NCBI GenBank assembly: GCA_026418195.1
Contig: JAOABU010000010.1
Span: forward strand, 1-44,420
Length of the DNA stretch: 44,420 nt
Direction: 5' to 3'
DNA from: Spirochaetota bacterium
GTDB lineage: Bacteria; Spirochaetota; Spirochaetia; DTKZ01
A program made the translations under genes and the position numbers. The notes under the pieces are model-generated. The model had not been told where the DNA came from, searched no databases, and worked only from the letters and a program-made list of their open reading frames with translations. This document shows, one piece after another, positions 11,818 through 13,653 of the stretch; the first letter of the stretch is position 1, and each line of letters opens with the position of its first letter.

Positions 11818-11826
11818 TACTTGGGT

Positions 11827-12507
11827 ATGGAAAGGGGCAAGAAACAACCATTATCCTGGAAAGCAAATCTTCGTAAAGGACTTCAGCGGCTAAGTGAGCA
11901 TGATCCATCCGGAGCGTTAAAGTACCTTCAGGTGGCGTTGGAAGCCTGTCCTGTAACAGAGCGAAAAGCATTGGCGAGAATTCTCTATTTTACGGGAATC
12001 ACCTTGCGAAAAATTGGTCTGTACGATAGTGCAGTAAAAAGCTGGAATGCGGCTAGACGGGTATGTAAATCTCCTCTGTATATTGCCTATGTAAAACGAT
12101 TTTCCAACGAGTATGGGATGGCTAAACAGGCACATCCTGAACTGGACGATTGGAGAGCCTTCTATTCCATACAAATTGGAAAATACCTGAAAACCAAGAA
12201 ATCCCATTCTTTTGGAACCCTGGCAGAGCAAGACATGATTCGAGATCTGATCTTTGATGCTTGGCAGCAGTTAATCAGATCGGGACGTTTAACGGGAAAA
12301 ACCTCAAAGGAAAAAGTAAAAGTATTTCACAACCATGAAATCATTTTCCCTTACTTTATGGTTCCACAAACCGTATCCATGTCGTTAGGGGAGGTAGCGA
12401 AAGAGAGAATCCGGGAGAAACTTTGCCCCTGTGGGAGCGGCTTACCTCTTCATCTGTGTTGTGGTCGCAGGCAGGGGGGGTGGAGCGCTCTGACTGGGAA
12501 ATTATGA
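11827..12507 (+). CDS. SEC-C motif protein of unknown function
   Basis: A 226-residue basic protein. The N-terminal half is helical and TPR-like (LSEHDPSGALKYLQVALEACP, then ALARILYFTGITLRKIGLYDSAVKSWNAARRV). The C-terminus has CPCGSGLPLHLCC, matching the zinc-binding SEC-C motif (CxCx8CC-type) found at the end of SecA and many stand-alone proteins. A TPR-like body plus SEC-C suggests a protein- or ribosome-binding adaptor, but that is inference. The start at 11827 is preferred over an in-frame TTG at 11821, which would sit three bases from the -10 box. It lies immediately upstream of the sigma factor gene but is separated from it by an AT-rich region with its own promoter. Confidence 0.75.
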   Translation: MERGKKQPLSWKANLRKGLQRLSEHDPSGALKYLQVALEACPVTERKALARILYFTGITLRKIGLYDSAVKSWNAARRVCKSPLYIAYVKRFSNEYGMAKQAHPELDDWRAFYSIQIGKYLKTKKSHSFGTLAEQDMIRDLIFDAWQQLIRSGRLTGKTSKEKVKVFHNHEIIFPYFMVPQTVSMSLGEVAKERIREKLCPCGSGLPLHLCCGRRQGGWSALTGKL

Positions 12508-12639
12508 TCCAGTTTGTATGGTTTTTTATAGAGTTGGGTAAAAATGACACAATTTTTACTTGATTCTGATTTCTCTATATTAAAAATTATATATTTATAT
12601 ACAGCACAAACAATTATTTTCTAAGTAATCTAAATTAGT

Positions 12640-12655
12640 TGGCATGTCTTTTGCA
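12640..12655 (+). promoter_or_regulatory. Sigma-54 (-24/-12) promoter of the sigma factor gene
   Basis: TGGCATG (12640-12646), four bases, TTGCA (12651-12655) matches the RpoN consensus TGGCAYR-N4-TTGCW with the invariant GG and GC in the right spacing. Transcription would start about 12 bases past the GC, near 12666, directly at the ribosome binding site AGGAGG (12668-12673) of the gene whose ATG is at 12679. The stretch upstream (about 12540-12640) is unusually AT-rich, as expected for DNA bent between an enhancer and the promoter; no enhancer sequence could be identified. Confidence 0.75.
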
Positions 12656-12678
12656 TTAATGTGTTGCAGGAGGCAGCC

Positions 12679-13569
12679 ATGACCAAGACTGCAAGAAAAA
12701 AAGCTCAGAAAGTTCCTGTAGAGAAGAGTACTCATTCCGACGAAAATATTCTTTCTCTCTATTTGAAAGAAATTAACAAGATCCCCCTTCTGACCCGCGA
12801 GGAAGAGGATCGATATGCGCGTCTAGCAGCTCAGGGAGACAAAGAGGCAAGGGAGAAGTTGTTGAAAGGCAACCTGCGGTTTGTAGTCAATGTGGCGAAA
12901 AAGTATCAGAATCAAGGTTTGCCCCTCTCAGATCTCATCAGTGAAGGGAACATTGGGCTACTCAACGCTATCGAACGGTACGATGTAAATAAAGGGTACC
13001 ATTTTATTTCCTATGCGGTATGGTGGATCCGTCAGGCGATCCTGAAAGCAATTTGCGAAAAATCTAGAATGATTCGGTTACCTTTGAACCGGGCAAACGA
13101 ACTGGTGCAGATCGAGAAGGCTCGCAAACTAGTTCAGAACTCTTCCAAGAGCGAAGATGCAGAAATGAAGGAGATCGCTCGTCTGTTGAACATGGACGAG
13201 ACCCATGTGGCAGAACTGGTGAACATCAGTAGGGACTTGGTTTCCTTGGAGACGCCTGTATATGCAGAGAAGGATTCTTCCTCTTTAGGGGATTTTGTCG
13301 AGGATGTGGGTTTCAAGCATCCGGAGGAGGTGGTGATTCAGGAATCCCTTAAGGAAGACATCAACAAGATTCTAAAAACTTTGTCAGAAAAAGAAGCCGA
13401 AATCATTCAATACCGATTCGGGTTGAACGGAAGGACTCCCCTTTCCCTGAAAGAAATCGGGGAGAAGTATAATCTTACCAAGGAACGAATCCGACAGATC
13501 GAGAAAAAAGCATTGAAGAGGATGCAGCATCCTTCTCGGAGTGAGATTCTGAAAGCCTATTTACAGTAA
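12679..13569 (+). CDS. RNA polymerase sigma factor, sigma-70 family group 2 (RpoD/RpoS-like)
   Basis: A 296-residue sigma factor. It lacks region 1.1 and begins with a short basic tail, then region 1.2 (DENILSLYLKEINKIPLLTREEE). Region 2 follows (GNLRFVVNVAKKYQNQGLPLSDLISEGNIGLL and YAVWWIRQAILKAI), then region 3, and region 4 (EAEIIQYRFGLNG to LTKERIRQIEKKALKRMQ). Size and domains are those of alternative group 2 factors such as RpoS. Start ATG 12679 follows CAGGAGG by five bases. An upstream GTG at 12661 would place the ribosome site inside the gene. Control by RpoN is predicted from the -24/-12 promoter. Transcription ends at the terminator at 13627-13653. A second RpoD-like factor near groES is, from memory, also present in Treponema. 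Confidence 0.93.
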   Translation: MTKTARKKAQKVPVEKSTHSDENILSLYLKEINKIPLLTREEEDRYARLAAQGDKEAREKLLKGNLRFVVNVAKKYQNQGLPLSDLISEGNIGLLNAIERYDVNKGYHFISYAVWWIRQAILKAICEKSRMIRLPLNRANELVQIEKARKLVQNSSKSEDAEMKEIARLLNMDETHVAELVNISRDLVSLETPVYAEKDSSSLGDFVEDVGFKHPEEVVIQESLKEDINKILKTLSEKEAEIIQYRFGLNGRTPLSLKEIGEKYNLTKERIRQIEKKALKRMQHPSRSEILKAYLQ

Positions 13570-13626
13570 AAAGGGGCTCCATAGAAGGCTGAAAGACGAT
13601 TTTATTTGAAACAGTCTGAACATCTG

Positions 13627-13653
13627 ACCGGCCTAAACAGAGGCCGGTTTTTT
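13627..13653 (+). terminator. Intrinsic terminator after the sigma factor gene
   Basis: ACCGGCCT (13627-13634), loop AAACAG, AGGCCGGT (13641-13648), then a run of T to 13653. A perfect 8-bp GC-rich stem with a U tail. It separates the sigma factor gene from ppdK. Confidence 0.93.

Follow-up and report, generated by a model that had tools for sequence, protein, structure and literature searches.

The question raised by this locus is whether a sigma-54 promoter drives a second sigma factor of the sigma-70 family, and whether the arrangement is the RpoN-RpoS cascade known from Borrelia or a different circuit. The window, meaning the whole 44,420-nucleotide stretch of DNA analysed here, is contig C118 of a 3.13-Mb assembly (158 contigs, 98.6% complete). 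Among named genomes, the closest is a MAG of an uncultured Spirochaeta (L027), in which the window sigma protein is 98% identical. A search of the window genome (G000) for the rpoN and NtrC-type activator genes implied by the preliminary description of the locus returned rpoN (PF04552, E 1.5e-60, over the cut-off) and approximately 17 AAA+ sigma-54 activator genes with strong PF00158 matches; rpoN was found in 114 of 120 Spirochaetota genomes. In addition to the window sigma, the genome encodes a separate RpoD, a FliA-type factor and two more factors of the sigma-70 type. Other genomes are referred to below as T. pallidum-like, Borrelia, Brachyspira-like or Leptospira-like, labels assigned from size, kinship class and gene content.

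The window sigma gene (12679..13569, forward strand) encodes a group-2-type sigma-70 family factor of 296 residues, hereafter the window type (A-type), in which Pfam sigma-70 regions 1.2, 2, 3 and 4 are present and region 1.1 is absent. Two other identities were rejected: the protein scored 259.2 bits against proteobacterial RpoS (TIGR02394), under the curated cut-off of 378.7, and it was also under the curated cut-off for RpoD. The sigma-54 promoter TGGCATGTCTTTTGCA (12640..12655, forward strand) matches TGGCATG-N4-TTGCA exactly and is the sole exact match in the window, all others having at least two mismatches. When the C of the -12 GC (12654) is taken as position -12, the start is predicted at approximately 12666, two bases 5' of the Shine-Dalgarno sequence AGGAGG (12668-12673) and 13 nt 5' of the ATG at 12679, giving a predicted leader of 13 nt (12666..12678, forward strand, read from the sequence). 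This start rules out the GTG at 12661 as the start codon. The 100 nt 5' of the promoter (12540-12639) have a GC content of 18%, and no sigma-70-type promoter match was found 5' of the gene. The near-consensus element, the start at the ribosome binding site, the factor without region 1.1 and the AT-rich upstream stretch are thus exactly as the preliminary description had them. Downstream, an intrinsic-terminator-like hairpin (13626..13649, forward strand) suggests a single-gene transcript; it is a consensus match, in a region where two such hairpins were found and 1.3 were expected in shuffles. The gene 5' of the window sigma gene (11821-12507) carries a C-terminal SEC-C motif.

Conservation of the element, including its GG/GC positions, was clear among orthologues. 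Scores of at least 20.5 of 24, mostly perfect, were obtained at 79 of 80 orthologues from named Spirochaetota contigs, compared to 46 of 1562 control windows from the same loci at the same threshold, and the single orthologue without the element lies 16 nt from a contig end. In the T. pallidum-like genome G056 (1.1 Mb, one contig), the window-type gene is preceded by a perfect element, TGGCATGATATTTGCT, and we take the product of this gene to be the equivalent of TP1012 in T. pallidum. When sampled across the phylum, the element was present in the class of the window and in several other families, and it was absent in Brachyspira-like genomes and in the longer-protein families f12, f21, f23 and f31. 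No orthologue of the window sigma passing 1e-66 was found in the three Leptospira-like genomes checked.

A conserved dyad approximately 100 bp 5' of the element was first seen when the closest relatives were aligned. The window contains a pair of candidate enhancer sites, neither with a strand assigned. The proximal palindrome TTGGGTAAAAATGACACAA (12534..12552) has a motif score of 21.9 and is conserved in L027-L029, and the distal site CTGGGAAATTATGATCCAG (12494..12512), 40 bp 5' of it, scores 14.0; the stop codon of the preceding SEC-C gene falls within this distal site. The palindromic motif TGKGTCATWATGACMCA was present at a score of at least 10 in 107 of 115 window-type loci compared to 0.7 expected in shuffles, a count that is optimistic since the motif was trained on sigma loci; the fair tests are the hold-out and the hsp20 genes described below. 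In the hold-out, 52 to 55 of 58 loci carried the motif compared to 0.2 to 0.6 expected, and after thinning to proteins less than 78% identical it was found in 32 of 37. Motif pairs among the 115 loci were exactly 40 bp apart in 71 cases and 41 bp apart in seven. The distance from enhancer to promoter ranged from approximately -90 to -320 and the pair spacing was fixed, as expected of an enhancer. Throughout the genome, a degenerate form of the palindrome matched only at 12535-12551 and at three other sites, one of them 5' of hsp20. Eight of the 115 loci scored below 10. The T. pallidum-like window-type promoter has a single weak site (8.3), and G010 is one of some genomes with an Rrp2 orthologue and a sigma gene that has no enhancer. 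Autoregulation was also considered; the best scores 5' of enhancer-protein genes gave no clear case.

The window genome contains 17 sigma-54-type sites compared to seven for a reversed-pattern control. The genes 3' of these sites include three hsp20 genes, amtB, a type III glutamine synthetase gene, TRAP-transporter genes and two sigma genes, the window gene and a second one treated below, and the sigma-54 consensus therefore appears to work in this genome. A membrane-fusion protein, an HpcH-type aldolase and others also belong to the candidate regulon (L196-L212). All three sigma-54-type hsp20 promoters carry the enhancer pair at 40 to 41 bp, whereas the enhancer was absent from the other twelve non-sigma sites of the genome, which all scored below 10. 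The motif had been trained on sigma genes alone, with no hsp20 sequence included. Among 20 other hsp20-bearing spirochaete genomes, 18 had an hsp20 gene with both a -24/-12 element and an enhancer scoring at least 10, and the enhancer-bearing hsp20 was usually the first gene of its cluster. A Borrelia genome with intact rpoN has the hsp20 element TGGTATGGTTTTTGCA and the enhancer GTGTGTATTTATTATACAT. In the two Borrelia genomes with an interrupted rpoN frame (L334, L335), the hsp20 element is one spacer base short or disrupted. The T. pallidum-like genome has no hsp20. As a separate observation, the sigma gene of the Brachyspira-like genome G118 (L136, L322) lacks the element, and its hsp20 has TGGTACAATTCTTGCA and a weak enhancer (8.0).

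The preliminary description had named an enhancer-binding protein as the trigger, and this is supported as likely. The best candidate is a receiver-AAA+-HTH protein (L008, on G000:C63) whose gene adjoins a kinase gene. It is the best match both to the T. pallidum-like protein (63%) and to Rrp2 of Borrelia (57-58%), and reciprocal best matches were obtained with Treponema-like, Borrelia and Brachyspira-like genomes, which identifies it as the Rrp2 orthologue. The window genome, G081 and Borrelia also have the gene order holB, kinase, rrp2 in common. In G081, a strong enhancer pair (24.6 and 16.6) is accompanied by only two enhancer-protein genes, one encoding a protein without helix-turn-helix and with GAYTDA for GAFTGA, and the other the Rrp2 orthologue. 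By elimination, the only HTH-bearing enhancer protein of G081 is the likely binder, so the palindromes are likely bound by the Rrp2 orthologue. Activator-like proteins in which GAYTDA replaces GAFTGA and a helix-turn-helix is missing (L015, L300) may be unable to engage sigma-54.

Binding of the palindromes by another enhancer protein, for example the GAF-type activator group of L021, is unlikely, though it is the strongest of the alternatives. That group is widespread, with members in most treponemes as well as in G006, G063, G005 and G041; the T. pallidum-like genome, where the enhancer is weak, has none. Against it, G081 combines its very strong enhancer pair with the absence of any L021-type gene.

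The assumption that the window gene is itself rpoS of the Borrelia cascade was improbable once the second sigma gene of the window genome (L005, on G000:C133) was compared. The two systems share their logic, namely a sigma-54 element, a group-2-type sigma factor and an Rrp2 orthologue in the genome. L005 has its own element, TGGTATGTTTATTGCA, starting 31 nt before the ATG, and lies between flgG with the rod-binding gene flgJ and tsaD, a gene we take to be COG0533. In Borrelia-like genomes, rpoS is flanked by the same rod-binding gene on one side and by tsaD on the other, except that an additional gene precedes tsaD. In a tree of 56 proteins, Borrelia RpoS grouped with the L005 type (support 99/97). 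The T. pallidum-like protein fell among the window-type proteins (100/97), and a topology joining Borrelia RpoS to the window type was rejected (p-AU 0.03). The enhancer architecture is not alike either. Orthology of the window gene to Borrelia rpoS thus failed on clade and on gene neighbourhood, and, judged by phylogeny and gene order, the orthologue of Borrelia RpoS is the L005-type gene and not the window gene. The Borrelia-like layout first proposed holds insofar as sigma-54 is predicted to drive a sigma-70-family factor, and does not hold as to the identity of that factor or its enhancer. A third alternative sigma-70-type factor of 336 residues is encoded approximately 3 kb from L005 (L004, G000:C133, 1480-2490); its gene adjoins a flagellar rod gene and has no -24/-12 element.

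Across the phylum, -24/-12 elements were found at nearly all of 30 L005-type loci. The enhancer was essentially absent from L005-type (Borrelia-RpoS-type) promoters, with 2 of 31 scoring at least 10, and a different dyad, TGTAT-N8-ATACA, was present at 7 of 30 (L214-L242 upstream regions), which suggests another activator for this relay. Only the window-type sigma is present in the T. pallidum-like genome and only the L005 type in the Borrelia genomes, so that the distribution of the two types, as read from gene content, is a pattern of reciprocal loss. These findings indicate that two paralogous sigma-54-to-sigma-70 relays, as predicted from their promoters, coexist in the window genome. They also support a sigma-54-to-sigma relay much older than Borrelia, in two paralogous forms, in agreement with the earlier suggestion that the cascade might be older. 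In two Borrelia-like genomes (L334 in G106, L335 in G076) the -24/-12 element of rpoS (L147, L148) is intact although rpoN is interrupted.

A role of the palindrome outside the sigma-54 system, as an operator for a conventional repressor or activator, is very improbable. Operators commonly take the form of palindromes of such a size, but the sites described here lie approximately 90 to 320 bp upstream at a variable distance and in fixed 40-bp pairs, co-occur with the -24/-12 element at sigma and hsp20 genes, and are missing from the other sigma-54 promoters of the window genome; the decay of the hsp20 element in Borrelia with interrupted rpoN also argues against it. The remaining possibility, that the -24/-12 match is due to chance and the window gene is read from an ordinary promoter, has practically no probability, given its retention in 79 of 80 orthologues and a strand bias in which TGG[CT]A[CT][GA]N4TTGC[AT] had 65 occurrences on the gene strand and none on the opposite strand over 599 kb from 80 orthologous loci.

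Our preferred reading, to which we give a probability of roughly 75%, is an ancient spirochaete stress circuit in which the Rrp2 orthologue and the tandem enhancer would drive sigma-54 transcription of both the window-type sigma gene and hsp20. Its promoter, enhancers, their conservation, the sharing with hsp20, rpoN, the Rrp2 orthologue and the paralogy could all be demonstrated at the level of sequence. The Hk2-Rrp2 orthologue (G000:C63) would bind as two dimers at 12494-12512 and 12534-12552 and loop across the AT-rich stretch to sigma-54 polymerase at 12640-12655, which it would open by ATP hydrolysis. The product would be a very short-leader mRNA for the group-2-type sigma factor, which would then steer core polymerase to targets of its own. 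The Rrp2 orthologue would also switch on hsp20, by way of the same enhancer together with a -24/-12 promoter, so that the outputs would be an immediate chaperone and a broader second-tier sigma factor. Protein damage or another stress would presumably be the signal. The window sigma factor presumably has a regulon of its own; no target genes of the window-type factor were found. This circuit would be a separate paralogue of the relay from which RpoN-RpoS in Borrelia arose.

As to the history of the two relays, we lean slightly towards an ancestor that had both, with different enhancers, and in which Rrp2 acted enhancer-bound at hsp20 and at the window-type sigma gene. Borrelia would then have lost the window-type sigma, kept the hsp20 enhancer and come to use Rrp2 enhancer-free at rpoS, and the syphilis treponeme would have kept only the window-type sigma. 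In B. burgdorferi, Rrp2 activates rpoS enhancer-free and does not bind to the 238 bp upstream of rpoS (PMC1976401), which fits this picture because rpoS belongs to the other relay, without the shared enhancer.

Sigma-54 control of a second sigma factor has hitherto been regarded as peculiar to Borrelia. In much of the phylum it seems to be an ancestral trait with two paralogous forms, one of which has an enhancer pair at a strict spacing and hsp20 as a shared target. The palindrome is a concrete candidate operator for Rrp2, for whose DNA-binding domain no site at rpoS is known, and may explain what Borrelia Rrp2 bound originally. It is also predicted that hsp20 is an RpoS-independent Rrp2/RpoN target in Borrelia, and the window-type relay hints at what the little-studied sigma-54 system of treponemes, the syphilis agent included, may control.

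Among known systems, proteobacterial RpoS (TIGR02394) shares the group-2-type domain layout with the window sigma. The tandem enhancers of NtrC-type proteins are likewise paired palindromic dimer sites 5' of a -24/-12 promoter; those of the glnA type have another sequence, whereas the window enhancer has a 40-bp spacing and sigma and small heat-shock targets. The L005-type relay resembles that of the window in its sigma-70 family factor, its own -24/-12 element and its phylum-wide occurrence, and differs in its locus among flagellar rod genes and tsaD and in lacking the window enhancer. In Leptospira, EbpA is also a spirochaete enhancer protein acting with sigma-54, with amtB and lipoproteins as reported targets (PMC12655853). 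The available part of a 2025 survey of sigma-54 regulons (PMC12316311) reports COG0533 as enriched in Spirochaetia and sigma-factor genes (COG0568) generally, and describes no window-like relay. The open literature, to which the search was confined (subscription papers lay outside its scope), held no description of the window-type relay, its enhancer or a spirochaete sigma-54 link to hsp20. The Rrp2-RpoN-RpoS pathway of B. burgdorferi is already well known (PMC1976401, PMC4014564, PMC11109971) and is the closest comparison: there too, sigma-54 drives a sigma-70-family factor without region 1.1 from a near-identical -24/-12 element, and an orthologous activator is encoded beside a kinase. It differs in that the window sigma is a paralogue at another locus with predicted co-regulation of hsp20, and in that the window type has a conserved tandem enhancer, whereas Borrelia needs none (PMC1976401).
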